Of a stretch of DNA of 46,409 nucleotides, positions 6,881 to 16,823 are shown piece after piece. The notes beneath the pieces are model-generated. The model saw only the letters and a program-made list of their open reading frames with translations. It searched no databases and was not told the origin of the DNA. The number at the start of each line of letters is the position of its first letter. Within the stretch, counting starts at the first letter, position 1. A program made the position numbers and the translations under genes. This DNA comes from an uncultured Caulobacteraceae bacterium (lineage in GTDB: Bacteria > Pseudomonadota > Alphaproteobacteria > Caulobacterales > Caulobacteraceae): the NCBI GenBank assembly GCA_903929535.1, contig CAIYVC010000089.1, positions 1 to 46,409 on the forward strand, in the 5' to 3' direction.

Positions 6881-8689
6881 ATGCCGCGTTCCCACCTGAT
6901 CGCCTGCCTGCTCGGGGGCTGCGCCTTCGCCCTGCCGCCTTTTGCGAAGGCCCAGGACGTCAGCCCACTGACCGTCACCGCCTCGCGCCTGCCCGCCCTC
7001 CTGGCGCGCACCCCGGACGCCTATGTCGTCACCTCCGACCAGATCGATCGCCGCCAGGCGACGCTGGCGACCGATGTCCTGGCCCAGGTTCCGGGCGTCA
7101 GCATCAGCGAGAACGGCGCCTTCGGCGGCGTCTCCTCAGTGCGGCTGCGCGGGGCCTCGTCCGACAAGACCCTGGTCCTGATCGACGGAGTTCCGGTCAA
7201 CGACCCGTCCCAGCCGGCCGGCGGCTTTGACTTCTCCAGCTTGGATCTGGGCGACATCAGCCGCATCGAGGTGCTGACCGGGCCGCAGGGATCGCTGTGG
7301 GGCTCGGACGCCATTGGTGGGGTGATCGCCTTCACCAGCCGCGAGCCGGATGGGCTGCGCGCCTCGGCGGAGGGCGGCTCCCTGACCACCCTGCGCGAGA
7401 CCGCCTCGCTCGGCCGCGCCACGGACGCCTACGCATTTGGATTCAGCGCCTCGGCCCTGCGCACCGCCGGCATCTCCAAGGCCGACGCCCGCGACGGCAA
7501 CAAGGAACTGGACGGTTTCAACACCACGACCCTGGCGCTGAACGGCCGCGTCGCCCTGACCGACGCTGTTACCCTGGACGCCCGCGCCCGCTACAGCCAC
7601 GCCGGGACCGAGTACGACGGCTTCGGCGGCAAGACCGGGGTGGTCGACAGCAACGACAATTCCGACGTGAAGAACGCGTCCGGCTATGTCCGCGCAGGGG
7701 TCAAACACCTGTTCGGTTTCGACCAGGAGGCCCGTGTCGACCTGATGGACCTGAACCGGCAGTACCACGGCGCCTTTCCGTTCGGCGCGCTGGGCAATGA
7801 GCAGGTCTATCGCTGGGCGGCCCAGCGCCAGACCGACCGCTATGGCCTGGCCTTCGGCGTCGAGCACAAGAGCGCCACGGAAAACACCGGCGGCGGCCCC
7901 CAGACCGAGGCCGCTAACGGCTACTACGCCATCGGCCGCTGGACGCCGGACGCCAAGCTCAACCTGACGGTTAGTCTGCGGCGCGACGATCCGGACCGCT
8001 ATCAGGGCCAGACCACCGCGCGGGCGGCGGTCAGCTACGCGGTGGGATCAGGCTTCACCCTGAACGGATCGGCGGGCCAGGGATTCAAGGCGCCGTCGAT
8101 CTACCAGACCACCTACCCCTGCTTCGAATGCGCCAAGGCCGGTCCGCCGCACCTGAAGCCGGAACGGGCCGAGGGCTTCGACGGCGGTGTCGCCTGGCGT
8201 TCGGGGGATGGGGCGGTGCAGCTGGAGGCGACCTATTTCGACCTGAAGGTCACCGACCAGATCAGCTACCTCTATCCCACCGGCTATCTCAACATCGCCA
8301 GGGTGAAGAGCCGAGGGGTGGAGGCAGGCGGCCAAGCCAAGCTGCCCGGCGGCTGGTCCCTGCACGGGTCCTACACCCACGACGACGCGGTGGACGGAAC
8401 CACCGGGCGGCCGCTGATCCGCGTGCCCAAGGATGTCGGGACCGGCGCGGTGGGCTGGGAGGGCCGGGGTTGGCAGGCCGAGGCCGGGGTCCGCGCCCAG
8501 AGCCTGGCGCCGGACACCAACGGCCCGATTGGAGCCTTCACCGTCGCCTACGCCACCGCCGCCTATGCGGTCACACCGCATCTAAGCGTCACCGGCCGGA
8601 TCGAGAACCTGGCCGACGTCCACTATCAGGAGGCTTACGGCTACGGCGAGCCGGGGCGGACGGTGATGGTCGGTCTGAGGTGGCGCTGA
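6881..8689 (+). CDS. btuB: TonB-dependent vitamin B12 receptor BtuB
   Basis: 602-residue outer-membrane receptor. A signal peptide (cleavage near AKAQD, residue 25) is followed by a TonB-box-like LTVTASR, a plug domain (DVLAQVPGVSISENG, SSVRLRGASSDKTLVLIDGV, IEVLTGPQGSLWGSDAIGG) and a 22-strand barrel ending in an aromatic-containing terminal strand (VMVGLRWR). The cobalamin riboswitch in its leader identifies the substrate as B12. The start ATG follows TGGAG at a somewhat long spacing. No B12 ABC transporter genes lie nearby, so the inner-membrane step must be encoded elsewhere. Confidence 0.93.
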   Translation: MPRSHLIACLLGGCAFALPPFAKAQDVSPLTVTASRLPALLARTPDAYVVTSDQIDRRQATLATDVLAQVPGVSISENGAFGGVSSVRLRGASSDKTLVLIDGVPVNDPSQPAGGFDFSSLDLGDISRIEVLTGPQGSLWGSDAIGGVIAFTSREPDGLRASAEGGSLTTLRETASLGRATDAYAFGFSASALRTAGISKADARDGNKELDGFNTTTLALNGRVALTDAVTLDARARYSHAGTEYDGFGGKTGVVDSNDNSDVKNASGYVRAGVKHLFGFDQEARVDLMDLNRQYHGAFPFGALGNEQVYRWAAQRQTDRYGLAFGVEHKSATENTGGGPQTEAANGYYAIGRWTPDAKLNLTVSLRRDDPDRYQGQTTARAAVSYAVGSGFTLNGSAGQGFKAPSIYQTTYPCFECAKAGPPHLKPERAEGFDGGVAWRSGDGAVQLEATYFDLKVTDQISYLYPTGYLNIARVKSRGVEAGGQAKLPGGWSLHGSYTHDDAVDGTTGRPLIRVPKDVGTGAVGWEGRGWQAEAGVRAQSLAPDTNGPIGAFTVAYATAAYAVTPHLSVTGRIENLADVHYQEAYGYGEPGRTVMVGLRWR

Positions 8690-8693
8690 CGGA

Positions 8694-9611
8694 TTAGGCC
8701 GCGGCCCAGCCGCCCTGGCCGACAAGGGCGGCGGGATCTTCCAGGGCCATCTCGTTCCAGTCGAGGTCCGGCGGCGGGCTGGCGGAGGCGGCGATAACCG
8801 CCTGCAGCTCGGCCGCCGAGGCCACCCCGACGATGACGTGACGCGCTTCGGGCCGCGACAGGGCGAAGCCCAGGGCGGCCTGAAGCGGGTCGCTGCGCCC
8901 TTCGGCGATCAGGCGGCGAACGCGGGACAGCGGTCCGGACGCGCCCTTGAGCGCCACCGGCATCCGGTCGGGAGGCAGGAACAGCAGGCCCTGCAGGAAG
9001 ATCGAGCGCAGATGCACCTCGACGCCGAGCCCGGCGATCTCGGCCAGGGCGCCGGAGGTGATCAGGCGCTGGTCGAGCAGGGAGGCGGGCGCCTGGATGA
9101 CATCGGGCTTGAACCGGCGGGTCAGGGCCACCGGCTCATCGGAGGCGAACACCGAGACGCCGATCTTGGCGAACAGACCCTGGTCCTTCAGCCGGCGCAG
9201 ACGGTCCCACACCGCAGCGCCCTGCGGACCGCAGAGCTCACCCGCGCTCTGCACCATGATGGTGTCGGCCTTGTCGAGGCGCAGCCGGCGCAGGGCCGCA
9301 CGGGCCTCGCCCTCCACGAAATCGGGGCCGCGATCGGCGCGGCCCGCCTTGATCATGACGCGGAAGGGGTTGGGGCGCGGCATCAGGTTGCCGATGACGG
9401 TTTCGGCGTGGCCGAACGACACCTGGGCGTCCAGCACCGACAGGCCGGCGCGAGCGGCGATCTGCATGGCGTCGGCGGCCTCGCGTTCCGGCGGGCGGCC
9501 GCGCGGGACCGAGGGCGTCTGGTCCAGGCCCAGCTGCGACGCGCCCAGCCCGAGCTTGGGATGGCCGTGCCGGAAGGACGCAGGAGAGGCGGGGGAATGG
9601 GTCATAGTCAT
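8694..9611 (-). CDS. Aldo/keto reductase family protein, catalytic tetrad degraded
   Basis: 305-residue TIM-barrel protein of the aldo/keto reductase superfamily (LGLGASQLG; LGVEVHLRSIFLQGLL; ALGFALSRPEARHVIVGVAS). The usual tetrad is Asp-Tyr-Lys-His. Here Asp61 and Lys88 are present, but the Tyr position in the DxxxxYGxSE motif is Phe66 (LDAQVSFGHAE) and the His position after strand 4 is Gln121 (DTIMVQSAG), so ordinary reductase chemistry is unlikely. Start ATG 9611 overlaps the stop of the aminotransferase-like gene (ATGA); an upstream extension to 9797 is an open-frame artefact. Tight coupling to another apparent pseudoenzyme suggests a joint role. Confidence 0.82.
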   Translation of the reverse strand: MTMTHSPASPASFRHGHPKLGLGASQLGLDQTPSVPRGRPPEREAADAMQIAARAGLSVLDAQVSFGHAETVIGNLMPRPNPFRVMIKAGRADRGPDFVEGEARAALRRLRLDKADTIMVQSAGELCGPQGAAVWDRLRRLKDQGLFAKIGVSVFASDEPVALTRRFKPDVIQAPASLLDQRLITSGALAEIAGLGVEVHLRSIFLQGLLFLPPDRMPVALKGASGPLSRVRRLIAEGRSDPLQAALGFALSRPEARHVIVGVASAAELQAVIAASASPPPDLDWNEMALEDPAALVGQGGWAAA

Positions 9612-10798
9612 CCTGCGGCGCGCCGGCCGGCGGGCCCATCGACGGAAGGAACAGCCCGGCGGACCGCCAAGGCCAGACGCTCGACCGCCTGCTCGCAGGC
9701 GGTCAGCAGCACCCCGATCTCGCGATCGCCGTGCGCGTAGGACATGTTGACGGCGCCCAGGGTGAATAAACGGTGCGCAAGGCACTCGCTGGTCCACACA
9801 TTCTGCATCTGGCCGGCGTCCACCCCGGTCGCGCCGAGCGCCGAGGGGCGGAACTCCATGCGCAGGGCCGCCGGATCGCCCTCGATCTGGACCGCTTCCT
9901 CAAGCCCCGCGCCCCGGATCAGCCGCGTGACCTCGGCCTGGATCTCGGCCCCGCCGATACGCAGTTGAGAGATGACCGGGTCGGTGGCGATCTTGTTCAG
10001 CACCGCCTTGGCGGCGGCCAGGGAAGCGATGTCGGGGCCGAGATGCTCGTTGTCCTGGGCCACCTGGACCAGATCGCGGCGTCCGATCAGGGCGCCCAGC
10101 GGCAGGCCGTTGGCCAGGTTGTCGCCGAACACCGCCATGTCGGCCTCCACGCCGTGCAGCGCCTGGGCGCCGCCCTCGTGTACGCGGAAGCCGGACAGGG
10201 TCTCGTCGAAGATCAGCACCGCGCCGTAACGGGCGGCCAGGGCCTGGACGGCGGGCAGGTAGCCCGGAGCGGTCTCGCGCAGACAAGGAGCGATGACCAG
10301 GGCGGCGATATCGCCAGAATGCATGTCGAGCAAACGGCGAAGCGCCGGCAGGTCGCCGAAAGGGAAGGGCGGCGCGCGCACGGCCGAGCCGCAGGCGAAC
10401 ACCAGTTCACGGCCCGTGACCAGCCGCGCCGCGGTGAGGGCCGCGCGCATGGCCTGGGACACGTCCGCGCCGAAGGCGGCGGCCTCGGCGCCGGGCGCCA
10501 TGGCCTGGATACGGTCGGCGACATCGGCGGTGTAGCGGTCCAGCCCCCGGCGCTCATCGGCCGAGCGGGCCAGGCGTACGGCGGCGATCACGGTCGGGTC
10601 GCGGTGGCCCAGAAGCACGGCGCCGCCGGCATTGTCGAAATCGATGTATTCGGCCCCGTCCGCGCTCCACACCCGCGAACCGATCGCCTGGACCATCTGC
10701 GGCAGGGCGATCTCGGCCACGTCGAACGCAGGCGTGATCCAACCCGCGCCGGAACGGGACGGATAGGCTGCGGGCAAGAGGGACGCCGAGACGGGCAT
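9608..10798 (-). CDS. Class III aminotransferase-like protein lacking the PLP lysine
   Basis: 396 residues, related to glutamate-1-semialdehyde aminomutase and sugar aminotransferases (YIDFDNAGGAVLLGHRDPTV; LIFDETLSGFR; ANGLPLGALIGRRD). The Asp that contacts the pyridine nitrogen is kept (D198), but the Schiff-base lysine in the GKxxANGMPL-type motif is Asp226 (FGDNLANGLPLGAL), and the phosphate-binding SGTEA motif is replaced by FGADVSQ. It therefore looks like a non-aminating homologue. It overlaps the aldo/keto reductase-like gene by ATGA. Related pairs occur in glycan and flagellin modification loci (general knowledge), but no other sugar genes are nearby. Confidence 0.82.
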   Translation of the reverse strand: MPVSASLLPAAYPSRSGAGWITPAFDVAEIALPQMVQAIGSRVWSADGAEYIDFDNAGGAVLLGHRDPTVIAAVRLARSADERRGLDRYTADVADRIQAMAPGAEAAAFGADVSQAMRAALTAARLVTGRELVFACGSAVRAPPFPFGDLPALRRLLDMHSGDIAALVIAPCLRETAPGYLPAVQALAARYGAVLIFDETLSGFRVHEGGAQALHGVEADMAVFGDNLANGLPLGALIGRRDLVQVAQDNEHLGPDIASLAAAKAVLNKIATDPVISQLRIGGAEIQAEVTRLIRGAGLEEAVQIEGDPAALRMEFRPSALGATGVDAGQMQNVWTSECLAHRLFTLGAVNMSYAHGDREIGVLLTACEQAVERLALAVRRAVPSVDGPAGRRAAG

Positions 10799-10935: not shown

Positions 10936-11814
10936 ATGAACGCCTTCCCCGCCTTCTTCACACTGGCCGGCCGCAGGGTCGTAATCGTCGGCGAGGGCGA
11001 GGGCGCGCAGATCAAGGCGCGGCTGTTCGAGGGCTCGCCCGCCGAGGTGGTGCGGCTGACGGCGGTGCAGGGCGCCGATCCGCAGGCCTACGCCGGCGCA
11101 GTCCTGGCCTTTGTCGCGATCAAGGACGATGGGCAGGCCGCCGCGGCGGTCGCCGCCGCCCGGGTGGCCCGGATCCCGGTCAATGCGGTCGACCGGCCCG
11201 CCCTGTGCGACTTCACCACCCCGGCTCTGATCGACCGGGGCGATGTGGTGGCCGCCGTCGGCACCGGCGGGACAGCCCCGCTGCTGGCCAGCCTGCTGCG
11301 CGGCGACATCGAGGCGCGGCTGCCCGAAGGCGCGGGCCATGTGGCGGCCCTGCTTGGGCGGATGCAGGGCGAGGTGCGTGAGGCCTTCCCCGATCTGGCC
11401 CGCCGCCGCGCCTTCCTGCGCTCGGCCCTCTCCGGACCCGCTGCCGAAGCGGCCCTGGCGGGAGACGCCAAGCGGGCCGAGACCCTGCTCCGCGAGGCGA
11501 TGGCGGCGGATGCGCCCCAGGACGGCCGGATACGGCTGCTGGACGGCGGCGGCCCGGCGGACCTTCTGACCCTGCGCGCCGCCCGCGCGCTCAGCGAAGC
11601 GGACCTGCTGATCGTCGAAGAAGGCGTTGCCCTCGAAATCCTCGTCCTGGCCCGCCGCGACGCCCCGCGCCTGGGCGCCGCCGACATCGAGGCCGCAGAT
11701 ATCGCGGAAAAGCTGGCGGAAGGGCTGCAGCTGGTTTGGATCACGGCGGCGGGCGCCGCCGAGGGGCGCGCGGACCTGCTGGCGGCGTCGGGCATCGCCG
11801 CGGCGATCCTCTAG
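10936..11814 (+). CDS. cysG: Siroheme synthase-type protein (precorrin-2 dehydrogenase/ferrochelatase) with truncated SUMT remnant
   Basis: 292 residues. The N-terminal NAD-binding domain (FFTLAGRRVVIVGEGEGAQI, about 1-110) and the dimerisation/ferrochelatase part with ALIDRGDVVAAVGTGGTAPL (Asp101 matches the catalytic Asp of CysG) resemble the bifunctional half of CysG that converts precorrin-2 to siroheme. From about residue 198 the sequence resumes as the first strands of the uroporphyrinogen-III methyltransferase half (GGGPADLLTLRAARALSEAD, then ILVLARRDAPRL) and stops about 45 residues later. The SUMT domain is therefore a vestige and methylation must come from another enzyme. Its stop overlaps that of the convergent MFS gene. 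Confidence 0.8.
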   Translation: MNAFPAFFTLAGRRVVIVGEGEGAQIKARLFEGSPAEVVRLTAVQGADPQAYAGAVLAFVAIKDDGQAAAAVAAARVARIPVNAVDRPALCDFTTPALIDRGDVVAAVGTGGTAPLLASLLRGDIEARLPEGAGHVAALLGRMQGEVREAFPDLARRRAFLRSALSGPAAEAALAGDAKRAETLLREAMAADAPQDGRIRLLDGGGPADLLTLRAARALSEADLLIVEEGVALEILVLARRDAPRLGAADIEAADIAEKLAEGLQLVWITAAGAAEGRADLLAASGIAAAIL

Positions 11815-13166
11815 ACCGGCCCGGCTCTGCGGCCCCAGACAATGAACAGGCCTCGGATCAGGATGGCGCTGTTGAGCAGCGCCGCCATGGCGAACGGACC
11901 CGCCGCGCCGAAGCGGTCGAACAGGGCGCCGCCGGCCATGCTCATTCCCGCCACGCTGAGCACTCCCAGAAGGACGAAGATGCTGGTGGCCATGCCGCGC
12001 AGATGGGGCGGCGCTTCCTGACCGAGCAGGACGCTGGTCGGCACGGTGATGGCGCCCTCCGCCAGGCCCATGGCCAGGGCGGCGACGTCGATCTGGGGCG
12101 ACATCAGGTCGTGCACCAACATCGGCGACAGCAGGGCGATGCTGACGATCGCCAGGCCCGCCAGCAGCAGCTTGCGCCGGTCGAACCTGTCCAGCAGCAC
12201 GCCCATGGTGAGGGCGCCGACCAGGGCGCCGACCTGGACGAAGGAATAGACGGTCCCGGCGTGCCGGGCGGCGGCGGCGGGGTCGATGCCCCGGGCGCGG
12301 GCGGCGGCGGCGATCGACAGCGACAGGAAGGTGGCGACCACCGCCAGGTCGCCGCGCACCGTCATCGAACCCAGCAGGGCCATCTGGAAACCGCCATTGC
12401 GTTTGGCGTGGGCGTAGAGCTGGCCGAAATCGCTCAGCACCGAGGACAGGGAGGCTATCGGCTTGGCCCGATCCGGCGCACGCTTGGTCTCCGGCTTCAG
12501 GCCGAACAGCACCAGGGCCAGGGCCGGAACCCCCATGGCGGCGATGCACCAGAAGGCGATGCTGAGGCCGCTTTCCGCTCCGGCTCCAAACCGCATGGCC
12601 CAGCCGGGCAGCCGCACCCCGATCTGGCCGACAATCAGGGCCGTTCCGACCAGCTGCACCCCCAGCATAGACGACATGAAGAGGCCGCGGGACTCGTTGC
12701 GCGGATAGTCGATGCCGAGCGCCTGGTTGGCGACCAGCTGAGCCCCGAGACCCGCGCCGATCAGCAGCGCCGCCCCGACAAAGCCGCCCTGCGTGGACTG
12801 GAGGGGATAAAGGGCCACGCCGCAGGCCATGGCGACATAGGTGAAGAGCAGCAGCTGGCGGCGTCCGATCCGATCGGCCAGGGCGCCGAACACCAGGGCC
12901 AGGGCGCCGACAGCCAGGCTTTGCCAGCCGGACAGGCCGCCCACCACCCGGCCCAGCTGATTGGCGGGCAGATGCAGGCGCGCGGACGCCAGATAGGGGA
13001 GCATCAGGGGCGTGAAGCCGGTGAAGCAGACGGCGGTCAGGGCCAGGGTGACATAGGCCAGCACATGGCGGGGCAGAACGCCGGGCGCCAGCCGGATCGG
13101 ACCGACCCTGTGTTCCATCGGCTCGGCCGGAGCCGTCCCATCGACGATGTCGGACGCGGCGCTCAA
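11811..13166 (-). CDS. MFS transporter
   Basis: 451-residue integral membrane protein with about 12 hydrophobic segments in two halves. The loop-2 motif appears as GALADRIGRRQLL and its second-half counterpart as GVLLDRFDRRKLL, typical of the major facilitator superfamily. Substrate is unknown. The TTG start at 13166 overlaps the stop of the binding-protein gene (TTGA), with ATG at 13118 as an alternative; both lack a good ribosome site. It is the last gene of the TonB receptor / binding protein / MFS run, which suggests it moves the same ligand across the inner membrane (inference). Confidence 0.85.
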   Translation of the reverse strand: MSAASDIVDGTAPAEPMEHRVGPIRLAPGVLPRHVLAYVTLALTAVCFTGFTPLMLPYLASARLHLPANQLGRVVGGLSGWQSLAVGALALVFGALADRIGRRQLLLFTYVAMACGVALYPLQSTQGGFVGAALLIGAGLGAQLVANQALGIDYPRNESRGLFMSSMLGVQLVGTALIVGQIGVRLPGWAMRFGAGAESGLSIAFWCIAAMGVPALALVLFGLKPETKRAPDRAKPIASLSSVLSDFGQLYAHAKRNGGFQMALLGSMTVRGDLAVVATFLSLSIAAAARARGIDPAAAARHAGTVYSFVQVGALVGALTMGVLLDRFDRRKLLLAGLAIVSIALLSPMLVHDLMSPQIDVAALAMGLAEGAITVPTSVLLGQEAPPHLRGMATSIFVLLGVLSVAGMSMAGGALFDRFGAAGPFAMAALLNSAILIRGLFIVWGRRAGPV

Positions 13167-14137
13167 GACAGACGCACCGCTTCGGCCAGCCGCAGCCGAT
13201 CGGCGGCAGCGGGCAGGAAGGCGGGGTCGAACATCTCCTCGGCCGAAGGCGCGCGGGGCAGAGGCGTGGTCTCGGCCAACAGATCGGCGGCTCGGCCCAG
13301 ACGGGCGGGGTCCATGGCGCCGAAACCGGAAACCGCAGTTTCCGGATGGGTCATTTCATCGCCGATGGTCCCGGTCCAGCGGTCCAATTCGATAGTCCGG
13401 TCCAGGGCGGGGTTGCGGGCCAGCGCCGCCGCCACCGCCGCCTCCGGGTCGGCGACCGCGGCCAGAAGACTGAGATTCAGGGCCCGCAGGAAGGCGCGCA
13501 GGGCCTCGGCCTTGCCCTCGATGGCCGGGCGGGACGCCATGACCACGCTGCCGTAGAGGTCGGGAACGATGGCGGGAAAGGGCAGGAAGCGCAGCCGTCC
13601 GGCCAGGGCCGGGTCGGCCTGACGCAGCACCGCCTTCTGGCTGGAGATGTAGCCGAACACCCCATCCGCTTGGCCGGCCAGCATGGTCTGCAGCATGGCG
13701 GCCATAGGATCGTCCGAAATGTCGATCTCGACCTTGGCCCGGTCCAGGCCGGCGGCCTTGGCGTAGGCCGGAAAGCTGCGATAGGCGACGTCGGAGGCGT
13801 GGGTGATCAGCCGGCGCCCCTCCAGGTCGGCGGGGACGTGGATCGGACCGTCGCTGGGCACGGCCACGGCGGACGGACTGCGATGGTGGATGGCGTAGAT
13901 GGCCGCCGGACCCGCCCCGGTCAGCCTGGCCAGCAGGCCGACTAGCGAACACATGTCGCCGAAGGTCAGGTCGAAGCCGCCCTCGATCATCATGGCCGGA
14001 GCGCGATAGGCGCCCGAACCGGCGACAAACGCGACGTCCAACCCCTCGTCGGCGAAAAGACCCCGCTCCTCGCCCAGGGCGAACCAGGCGTTGGCCCCGG
14101 AATAGTAGGAGTTGAGCAGCACCTTGAGGTCGGTCAC
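13163..14137 (-). CDS. NMT1/THI5-like (SsuA/TauA-type) substrate-binding protein without signal peptide
   Basis: About 324 residues with the bilobal binding-protein fold of nitrate/sulfonate/HMP-type ligands (DLKVLLNSYYSGANAWFALG; GLFADEGLDVAFVAGSGAYR; FDLTFGDMCSLVGLLARL; DVAYRSFPAYAKAAGLD). There is no Sec, Tat or lipoprotein signal, so as read it is cytoplasmic. The longer frame to 14191 is rejected because it starts inside a terminator hairpin; GTG 14137 with GGA upstream is better. No ABC permease or ATPase gene is nearby. It could be a sensor-like or enzyme-like NMT1 protein, or the signal may have been lost. Confidence 0.75.
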   Translation of the reverse strand: MTDLKVLLNSYYSGANAWFALGEERGLFADEGLDVAFVAGSGAYRAPAMMIEGGFDLTFGDMCSLVGLLARLTGAGPAAIYAIHHRSPSAVAVPSDGPIHVPADLEGRRLITHASDVAYRSFPAYAKAAGLDRAKVEIDISDDPMAAMLQTMLAGQADGVFGYISSQKAVLRQADPALAGRLRFLPFPAIVPDLYGSVVMASRPAIEGKAEALRAFLRALNLSLLAAVADPEAAVAAALARNPALDRTIELDRWTGTIGDEMTHPETAVSGFGAMDPARLGRAADLLAETTPLPRAPSAEEMFDPAFLPAAADRLRLAEAVRLS

Positions 14138-14165
14138 GTCGGGTCCAGTACGCGCAAAAGGCAGT

Positions 14166-14189
14166 GGCCGCCCGCTTGCGCGGGCGGCC
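14166..14189 (-). terminator. Hairpin terminator after the TonB receptor gene
   Basis: Perfect 10-bp stem (GGCCGCCCGC / GCGGGCGGCC) with a TTGC loop, 20 nt past the receptor stop. On the minus strand it is followed by ACTGCCTTTT. It probably reduces read-through from the highly expressed receptor gene into the binding-protein gene. Confidence 0.75.
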
Positions 14190-14208
14190 AAGGCGGCAGG
14201 GGAGCCGC

Positions 14209-16716
14209 CTATTCGAACTTCAGGTCGAGCGACACGCCCACGGTGCGCACAGCCTCGTTGTTGAGCACGTTGGTGAAGCCGCCGTTCCCCGCCTGACGCC
14301 CACCGGTGTAGAAGGTGTTCAGCGCGTTACGGGCGTAGAGGCCGATACGGTACATGCCGTTGGGCGAGGTGATCCCCGCATCCAGGTTCAACTGGCCGTA
14401 GGGCGGGTTGATCAGATTGGGGTCCATCGGCGCCGACAGCCATTGCGAGCGCCACAGATAGACGGCGTTGGCCTCGATCAGGAACTTGTTGGCCAGCTGG
14501 TGAGTGTAGGTCGGGCCCACGCGATAGGTATATTTGCTGGAGTTGATGAGGGCGGTGCCCGCGGCCTGGGCCGAGGAGGCGCCGTTGACCGTGATACAGC
14601 CCCCCTGCCCGCTCTTGGCCTGCTTGATCGGCTCGAAGGCGTTCCAGCAGGAGGTGACGAAGTCGGTGTAGTGGTTGTCGTCGAACGAGAATGAGCCGTT
14701 CAGCTTCCAGTCGTCGGTGGGACGGAAGTTGACTTCCAGCTCGGCGCCCTGAGCGAGCATCCCGCCGGCGTTGCCCAGCTGGAACACGTTGGGGATCACC
14801 GACTGGTTCAGCACGCTGACCTGGTAGTTCTTGTACTGCTCGCGGAAGAGGGTGAGGTCGAAGGTCAGCTTGCGGTTGAACCAGGTGGACTTGATGCCGC
14901 CTTCCAGCTCGTCGACCTCTTCCGGCTTGATCGGGTTGAGGACGAAGACCGAGGTATCGATCAGCGGGCCTTTGTAGCCGTGAGCGACGGTGCCGTAGAC
15001 CTGGACGTCGGGCGTGATGAAGTACTGAGGCGAGATGCGCCAGGTGTAGCCAGTGTTCTGGATGTCCAGCGACCGGGGCGGCAGGATCGAGATGGTCGGG
15101 GTCACGCCCGCCACATACTTGGCCCCGTTCACCGCCGTGGCCTGATAGACGCCCTGATAGCCCTGGGCGTAGGGGATGACATTGATGCCGGCGTAGACAT
15201 CGTCGTGTGTCACCCGCATCCCCAGGTTCAGCAGAAGCTTGTCCGAGAAGTGGTAGGCGCCGTCGATAAAGGCCGCGTAGTTCTTGTTGATGTTGCGGAC
15301 ACGCTGAATGCCGCCGGTGGTGGTGATCAGCACGTTATCGCCATAGGGCGTGTTGGGATATTCGTCGATCGCCTCGCCGTAACCCTGGGTGAGTTGCAGC
15401 GCCTTCGACATCGTATCGCGGTCGTTAAAGTATAGGCCGGCCACGAAGGTGATCTTGCCGGTGTCGGGCGAGGCGAGGCGCAGTTCTTCGGAGGACTGGC
15501 CGCCGTTGTACCAGTTGTTCAGATAGCCGTTGGTATAGTAGCCGGAACCCAAGGGGCCATGGAAGAACCGCGACATGAAGCGGTAGGCCGTGATCGACGT
15601 CAGGGTGTAATTACCCAGCTGATAGGTGGCCTTGATGCCCGCGCCGCCGGCATCTGTGTTGCGATAGGCGGTCTGGGCCTCGGCGCTGGAGCCGTTGGCG
15701 GGATTGACATTGAGCCCCGGCACGCCGGCGAATGTCCCGCCGGTCGGGCTGGCCAAGGCGGCGGACATGGTGCCGATCAGCGGACCGAGCGTGGCCCCGT
15801 TGCAGCCCGGCAGGGAGCCGGGCGCGGTGATCACGCCAGCGGCGTTGCGGGTGGGGCCGTAGAAGGTCGCCCACGGTTCGGAGATACCCGGGCCGCAGGC
15901 GCCCCAGGCCTGCGGGAAGTTGGGATATTCCTTGATCCGGCGTACGTCGCTGCTGAACACGACGCGCAGCTTATCGCTGGCGTCCCACAGAAGCTTGCCG
16001 CGGAAGCCATCGAGGTAGCGGCCGCCTTCGTTGATCCCGAGGCTGGGGTCTCTGAAAACCCCGTCGTGGTTCTGGTAGGAAACCATCGCCCGCGCCGCCA
16101 GGGCGTCGTTGATGGCGAAGTTCTTGACGATGTAGGAACCGATGTCGGTGTGTTCGCCGTAGGTGGCGTGCGCCTTCAGCTCGTTGGACCCGATCTTGGG
16201 ATCGTTGGTCTGGATCGAAACGGCGCCGGCCGTGGTGTTCATCGCGAACTGAGTGCCCTGAGGCCCGCGGTAGACTTCGATGTGGTCCAGGTCGGAAAGG
16301 TCGCCGCCGATGTCGTCGACGAAGCCGATCAGCACCCCGTCCACCACCAGGCCGACCGACTGTTCGGTGCCGCCGTTGGAGCTGTTGGTGCCTGACCCGC
16401 GGATATAGATGGCGTTGGCGCCCTGGATCGACACCTGCACGCTGGGCGAGACGAACTGCAGGTCGCCTGGCTTCTGGTAGCCGGCGTGGGAGAATTCGGT
16501 GGCGGCCACGGCGGTCACCGCCATGGGCACATCTTGAAGCTTCTGGGTGCGCAGAGCGCCGGTGACGACGATCTCCCCGACCTGGGCCGTCCCAGCGGGA
16601 TCAGCGGCCGCCGCGGCTTCGGCGGCCAAGGCGGGGCCGCCAGCAGTCAACGCCAGGACGCCCGTCGCCAGCAAGGTGCTGGTCAGTAATTTTGCACCGC
16701 ACTGTACTATTTTCAT
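14209..16716 (-). CDS. TonB-dependent receptor
   Basis: About 835-residue outer-membrane receptor of the Caulobacter/sphingomonad type. It has a signal peptide (MKIVQCGAKLLTSTLLATG, cleavage after GPALA), a TonB-box-like EIVVTGALRTQKLQDVPMAV, a plug (SVQVSIQGANAIYIRGSG; GLVVDGVLIGFVDDIGGDL; IEVYRGPQGTQFAMN) and a barrel ending in VGVSLDLKFE with terminal Phe at the penultimate position. Ligand is not evident. ATG 16716 is chosen because GAGGGG precedes it by 7-8 nt; the GTG at 16731 overlaps that site. It heads the receptor / NMT1-like / MFS cluster. Confidence 0.92.
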   Translation of the reverse strand: MKIVQCGAKLLTSTLLATGVLALTAGGPALAAEAAAAADPAGTAQVGEIVVTGALRTQKLQDVPMAVTAVAATEFSHAGYQKPGDLQFVSPSVQVSIQGANAIYIRGSGTNSSNGGTEQSVGLVVDGVLIGFVDDIGGDLSDLDHIEVYRGPQGTQFAMNTTAGAVSIQTNDPKIGSNELKAHATYGEHTDIGSYIVKNFAINDALAARAMVSYQNHDGVFRDPSLGINEGGRYLDGFRGKLLWDASDKLRVVFSSDVRRIKEYPNFPQAWGACGPGISEPWATFYGPTRNAAGVITAPGSLPGCNGATLGPLIGTMSAALASPTGGTFAGVPGLNVNPANGSSAEAQTAYRNTDAGGAGIKATYQLGNYTLTSITAYRFMSRFFHGPLGSGYYTNGYLNNWYNGGQSSEELRLASPDTGKITFVAGLYFNDRDTMSKALQLTQGYGEAIDEYPNTPYGDNVLITTTGGIQRVRNINKNYAAFIDGAYHFSDKLLLNLGMRVTHDDVYAGINVIPYAQGYQGVYQATAVNGAKYVAGVTPTISILPPRSLDIQNTGYTWRISPQYFITPDVQVYGTVAHGYKGPLIDTSVFVLNPIKPEEVDELEGGIKSTWFNRKLTFDLTLFREQYKNYQVSVLNQSVIPNVFQLGNAGGMLAQGAELEVNFRPTDDWKLNGSFSFDDNHYTDFVTSCWNAFEPIKQAKSGQGGCITVNGASSAQAAGTALINSSKYTYRVGPTYTHQLANKFLIEANAVYLWRSQWLSAPMDPNLINPPYGQLNLDAGITSPNGMYRIGLYARNALNTFYTGGRQAGNGGFTNVLNNEAVRTVGVSLDLKFE

Positions 16717-16823
16717 GTCAGCACCCCTCACGCTTGATCTGGACCAACAGCAAGTTGATCGTTTTTCAGCTCGGGGGCGCCGACGCTTCTAGTTAGCGCC
16801 GGAACGAAGATTCCATTTTTACT

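Follow-up and report, generated by a model that had tools for sequence, protein, structure and literature searches.

Two overlapping genes of an uncultured Caulobacteraceae bacterium encode homologues of metabolic enzymes that lack catalytic residues, and the question they raise is what such proteins do and from what they descend. The genes lie in a window of 46,409 nucleotides, by which we mean the whole stretch of DNA that was analysed. A sequence-only reading had described them as translationally coupled homologues of a class III aminotransferase and of an aldo/keto reductase, and had suggested a regulatory complex or an enzyme with altered chemistry, derived from a sugar-modification pair. 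The explanation that, taken as a whole, we consider probable is that the window contains a kidO operon, that kidO and the aminotransferase gene come from a three-gene sugar-nucleotide module, and that the aminotransferase homologue (hereafter AT) may act as a non-catalytic partner or stabiliser of KidO.

KidO of Caulobacter crescentus was reportedly described by Radhakrishnan et al. in 2010. According to the available portions of four papers, the C. crescentus protein is homologous to oxidoreductases and binds both NAD(H) and FtsZ; it also antagonises the CtrA pathway, and ClpXP degrades it (PMC7083601, PMC5900048, PMC8973945, PMC8262945).

The reductase homologue belongs to the KidO family

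The downstream gene of the pair (positions 8694 to 9611, minus strand, start codon ATG at 9611-9609) encodes a protein of 305 residues that matches the NCBIfam model NF011432, 'bifunctional regulator KidO', with 445.5 bits against a cut-off of 244 (E = 9.5e-134), and the Pfam family Aldo_ket_red with 58.9 bits (cut-off 24). The upstream gene (9608 to 10798, minus strand) encodes AT, of 396 residues, which matches Pfam Aminotran_3 with 73.3 bits (cut-off 30.5, E = 2e-20); given the E values for the KidO model and for Aminotran_3, both family matches lie far beyond chance. Judged by its family match, the reductase homologue is KidO, an NAD(H)-binding regulator of cell division and the cell cycle known from Caulobacter, and a regulatory role for this half of the pair is already known; the earlier reading contained neither this identity nor the third gene considered below. 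Both frames are intact. The genes overlap by four nucleotides, ATGA (9608 to 9611, minus strand), which join the TGA stop codon of AT to the ATG start codon of kidO, and the same junction was found in 13 of the 17 AT-kidO junctions read among KidO-linked ATs, in line with the translational coupling claimed earlier.

Alignment of KidO with the Asp-Tyr-Lys-His tetrad of the reductases shows that Asp61 (9429 to 9431) and Lys88 (9348 to 9350) are kept, and that Phe66 (9414 to 9416) occupies the position of the catalytic Tyr and Gln121 (9249 to 9251) that of the catalytic His, all on the minus strand; the tetrad is incomplete, and the four residues are those named in the sequence-only reading. Lys88 is lost in Caulobacter-type KidO, a term that stands here for the genus coded g22, whose assignment to Caulobacter is a guess from its top KidO scores. 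Among the aligned KidO sequences, which were reduced to non-identical ones, the full tetrad is retained in family f6 and in the genomes G018, G003/G025 and G007, and at least one residue is lost in the others. The non-KidO reductases aligned all carry the tetrad except one (L149), which has Arg for His, and on the tree the whole-tetrad state requires a minimum of four changes, counting this one.

KidO of the window ends in Ala-Ala-Ala (8697 to 8705, minus strand), a candidate ClpXP degron. All 25 Caulobacteraceae KidO rows, that of G018 among them, end in an alanine tail, which is VA in three and AA in the rest; none of the three f6 rows has it, and 3 of 29 others do. In G018, G003/G025 and G007 the tail is thus present together with a whole tetrad. 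The available part of one paper describes such a degron in C. crescentus, where changing two alanines at the C-terminal end of KidO stabilised the protein (PMC7083601). The window protein resembles KidO of C. crescentus in its family match above the curated cut-off, its C-terminal alanines and its altered tetrad. It differs in keeping Lys88 and in having a pseudo-aminotransferase gene upstream in its operon, which is absent from many KidO loci. By orthology, it would bind NAD(H), be degraded by ClpXP and antagonise the CtrA pathway as well as the FtsZ ring. Outside the order, three relatives of KidO (the f6 loci L128, L129 and L130) have all four tetrad residues but end without the alanine tail, and their surroundings contain no AT; L129 adjoins a PseC homologue.

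Genomic context of the pair

In the window, the neighbours of the pair are TonB receptor and CysG-like genes, and no gene for PseI, PseC or a cytidylyltransferase lies beside it; the same genome encodes PseI on contig C98 and a canonical cytidylyltransferase on contig C148, away from kidO. The BtuB-like TonB receptor gene (6881-8689, plus strand) stands tail to tail with kidO, and a homologue of it adjoins kidO at six other loci. On the other side, the CysG-like protein (10936-11814, plus strand) has the precorrin-2 dehydrogenase and dimerisation parts and only a partial methylase domain. Next to it, a row of genes (11811-16731, minus strand) encodes an MFS transporter, an NMT1/THI5-like protein (13163-14191) with no signal peptide obvious by eye, and a TonB receptor of 840 residues; the row includes no ABC permease or ATPase, and is odd company for a substrate-binding protein. 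At eight loci a divergent gene of the XdhC/CoxI family lies upstream of the kidO operon. A search upstream of the kidO operon of the window found no canonical CtrA box (TTAA-N7-TTAA, with up to one mismatch); the sequence contains two TTAA with a spacing of 13 nt, at about 10849 and 10866.

AT lacks the PLP lysine, the phosphate motif and the ring-stacking loop

Position 226 of AT (10121 to 10123, minus strand), where the PLP lysine belongs, is Asp within FGDNLANG, and is Lys in all 26 sugar-operon-type ATs and all five outgroup ATs aligned. The phosphate-motif region reads GADVSQA, where nearly all of the 26 sugar-operon-type ATs have xKNG[S/T]D[A/V], and the ring-stacking loop YHGWxDW is absent. 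Present is Asp198 (10205 to 10207, minus strand), the residue that in class III enzymes pairs with the pyridine nitrogen; it is Asp in 14 of the 17 KidO-linked ATs and Glu in three. The alignment agrees with the earlier description of Asp226, the missing phosphate motif and the retained Asp198. The possibility raised there, of a nearby lysine at the PLP site, was not borne out: the only lysines of AT are K264 and K269, 38 and 43 residues past site 226 and neither of them conserved, and no alignment column has Lys in at least 8 of the 16 lysine-less ATs, so the missing lysine is not replaced by a nearby one.

The expectation that orthologues would share the substitutions holds for the loss of the lysine, which is missing from 16 of the 17 KidO-linked ATs; it fails for the substitute, which varies (one Asp, one Glu, two Ser, three Pro and nine Ala), and for G018, which has the canonical Lys. 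The phosphate motif and the YHGWxDW loop are absent from all 16 lysine-less ATs and both present in AT of G018; of the 16, 14-16 share many columns, ANG and GxxxxQ...V among them. The closest PDB sequences to AT are C-6' aminotransferases and GSA aminomutase; an AlphaFold prediction from two sequences had a mean pLDDT of 40.7, which is unusable, and was kept out of fold searches. With the class III aminotransferases of nonulosonic acid operons (GSA aminomutase-like, the NCBIfam PRK06209 group) AT shares the fold family, D198, the ANG motif and common ancestry; unlike them, it is missing the lysine that binds PLP, the phosphate motif and the YHG loop, and no pathway genes adjoin it in the window.

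Some sugar dehydratases that lack this lysine use PMP or PLP. AT might likewise still be an enzyme that uses PMP or PLP without the lysine, with KidO as its reductase partner in sugar chemistry, and the retained Asp198, the clear fold family and the sugar pathway of the ancestral module would fit this; we find it very improbable, given that all 16 lysine-less ATs have lost both the phosphate motif and the YHG loop, that Asp198 is Glu in 3 of 16, that the lysine site has no fixed residue and that KidO of the window has lost Tyr and His. The altered chemistry offered as one possibility in the sequence-only reading is for this reason thought unlikely: the phosphate motif and the ring loop are absent, and not the lysine alone.

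The window genome is fragmented (172 contigs), which might suggest an assembly error or a merely mutated copy. This is extremely improbable, because the same pair occurs in genome G004, with 79% (AT) and 90% (KidO) identity to the window and Glu at the lysine site, and 14 further genomes lack the lysine; the merely mutated copy is ruled out by these orthologues. A scan of genome contigs gave one close relative, and 549 plasmid records contained only distant aminotransferases, all under 60% identity.

Trees and gene order point to a sugar-nucleotide module

In the AT tree, the 17 KidO-linked ATs form one clade (100/97) that is nested in the sugar-operon-type ATs (100/98); the outgroup of this tree is not one side of a branch, as L023 grouped with mod_L127. 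The lysine-bearing AT of G018 is sister to the 16 lysine-less ATs (100/100), and one change of state accounts for the lysine. In the aldo/keto reductase (AKR) tree, KidO forms a single clade with support of 100/99. It lies within a group (98/85) that has 28 rows of KidO, 14 with the label module and a single row with the label non-module. In this tree one reductase (L135) is labelled module though no module gene was found near it, and another (L144) non-module though an acetyltransferase is near. The tree omits the outgroup L138 along with six KidO rows that were near-duplicates, and does not include L151; the reductase sample, drawn with KidO of G018 as the query, has few outgroups.

With this query, matches at E <= 1e-20 were obtained in 35 of 385 genomes of the class; seven are KidO and the other 28 are non-KidO reductases. 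These 28 nearest non-KidO reductases belong to other Alphaproteobacteria; 20 of them lie near a homologue of PseC, PseI, a cytidylyltransferase or AT, 12 near an AT, and eight neighbourhoods, some on short contigs, contain none of the four module genes. Gene orders such as AKR-cytidylyltransferase-AT and AT-AKR are recurrent. Many of these reductases and the nearest lysine-bearing ATs lie in nonulosonic (pseudaminic) acid operons, and close ATs were found only beside KidO or, with the lysine, in PseI operons. Besides the KidO-linked copy, G007 and G025 each encode another AT, which retains the lysine; its operon also contains homologues of PseI and PseC, acetyltransferases and a cytidylyltransferase. 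At the kidO locus of G018 (L068), the AT lysine, the Asp-Tyr-Lys-His tetrad and intact cytidylyltransferase motifs are found together in one operon; a search of G018 for PseI gave no match at E <= 0.001.

The third gene, absent beside kidO in the window, is a cytidylyltransferase homologue located 3' of kidO in 11 of the 22 genomes searched. The set of KidO-linked copies comprises 28 sequences, from 22 of 30 loci and six others; one locus gave no match and the other seven, mostly near-duplicates, were left out. The EHVT and WTVD motifs are lost in 27 of the 28 and kept in G018, and the other cytidylyltransferases (21 of 21) keep both in full or nearly (one EHVM, one WTLD). SPTA and WRVKT are common to 25 of the 27 altered copies, and six KidO-linked pairs gave dN/dS values of 0.04-0.62, which together suggest a new constraint on the altered protein. 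A quick tree separates the KidO-linked copies from the rest by one branch (97). For the proteins considered here, we infer from residues whether activity is present or lost. Membership of Pfam family PF02348 and the place in such operons indicate that this cytidylyltransferase is probably FlmC-like. In the available part of the source on the C. crescentus pseudaminic acid pathway, the cytidylyltransferase of that pathway, FlmC, reportedly lacks homology with PseF (PMC7591256). That pathway, as described there, shares with the present operons a homologous cytidylyltransferase family and PseI in related operons, and PseI and the canonical cytidylyltransferase are found elsewhere in the window genome; it differs in having no class III aminotransferase or reductase.

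The proposed descent of kidO from a sugar module is supported by the AT tree, the AKR tree, the gene order, G018 and the altered third gene. On the evidence of trees, gene order and residues, both kidO and AT would descend from an AT-reductase-cytidylyltransferase module whose chemistry went piece by piece, and the earlier suggestion of an origin in a sugar-modification set is upheld by the same evidence. A literature search that covered papers in part, and had the primary KidO paper outside its scope, found no paper proposing this origin. The ancestral module would have comprised a class III aminotransferase, an aldo/keto reductase and a cytidylyltransferase of the FlmC/SpsF type, as in nonulosonic or pseudaminic acid operons. 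For AT, the loss of the PLP lysine and of the phosphate and ring loops would fall on a single branch, later than the separation of G018. In the reductase, the alanines at the C-terminus would have been acquired in Caulobacteraceae, and part of the catalytic tetrad would have disappeared, apparently on more than one occasion. The cytidylyltransferase would have been altered in place in some lineages and be absent beside kidO in others, the window included.

AT is constrained and adjoins kidO in 17 of 17 genomes

KidO scores above the cut-off in 180 of 199 Caulobacteraceae genomes and at E <= 0.001 in 187 of 199, some of these matches being weak. With the window AT as the query, a search from which more divergent ATs may have escaped, close ATs were found in 17 of the 199 (E <= 2.8e-32; next best genome, 5.9e-20). 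These KidO-linked ATs directly adjoin kidO in 17 of 17 genomes and none of their frames is broken. The idea that the two proteins always co-occur does not hold; since most KidO genomes have no AT, AT is dispensable and not needed by KidO.

By Nei-Gojobori counting, dN/dS is 0.10-0.44 in eight pairs of lysine-less ATs, 0.235 in one lysine-bearing AT pair and 0.07-0.26 in nine KidO pairs, and AT exceeds KidO in each of eight matched pairs. AT is constrained, though less than KidO. Such values for the lysine-less ATs indicate that they are not simply decaying, as the sequence-only reading had concluded from the intact frames, the normal codons and the coupling.

Our tentative proposal is that AT may be a folded, non-catalytic protein that in certain lineages partners or stabilises KidO. 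In favour of the partnership are the strict adjacency, the coupling and the constraint; the many KidO genomes without AT weaken it. Through the ATGA overlap, the synthesis of AT would keep pace with that of KidO, and the two would interact by an interface inherited from the enzyme pair.

The main rival, possible if rather doubtful, is that AT is a relic without a job as a protein, its frame kept because translation feeds ribosomes to kidO through ATGA, and drifting to loss. Its absence from most KidO genomes would then be expected, as would the frequent ATGA overlap (13/17), the drift of the lysine site through D, E, S, P and A, and a dN/dS above that of KidO in every matched pair; what a relic explains poorly is a dN/dS as low as, or near, that of the lysine-bearing pair, together with the ANG and GxxxxQ...V columns kept in 14-16 of 16 and the absence of a broken frame among 17. 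That AT and KidO, joined by further module proteins that were retained, make up a complex for sensing metabolites, the signal being a sugar nucleotide or a related ligand, we regard as unlikely: some genomes do retain all three module genes in altered form, and the SPTA and WRVKT motifs of 25 of 27 altered cytidylyltransferases fit such a complex, but gene sets differ by lineage and kidO of the window has no third gene next to it.

A possible path from metabolic enzymes to regulators

At this locus, metabolic enzymes appear to be in transition to regulators; both proteins seem to stem from an enzyme set for the synthesis of surface sugars. In the available part of one paper, GdhZ and CitA are likewise metabolic proteins recruited to cell-cycle control in Caulobacter; they are active enzymes (PMC7083601), in contrast to the present case, where several genes of a single former operon encode proteins that have lost residues of the active site. 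More speculatively, and in our view with a rather low probability, a three-enzyme sugar-nucleotide operon may have turned into a non-catalytic regulatory assembly of pseudo-aminotransferase, KidO and pseudo-cytidylyltransferase that senses NAD(H), perhaps with a sugar or nucleotide ligand, and links flagellar-sugar metabolism with FtsZ and CtrA control. If this were true, G018 would be a living intermediate of that assembly, still enzymatic and with the degron tail already present.

Among homologues of metabolic enzymes that control division, KidO is a standard example, and the portions of papers available to us do not give its source. The trees and the gene order point to a specific one, a nonulosonic acid module, and to companions whose active sites were lost along with that of KidO. 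G018 is an extant genome in which all three active sites are apparently intact. Along the series f6, G018, G003/G007, the window and Caulobacter-type KidO, the passage from enzyme to regulator could be reconstructed step by step for activity, degron and FtsZ binding.
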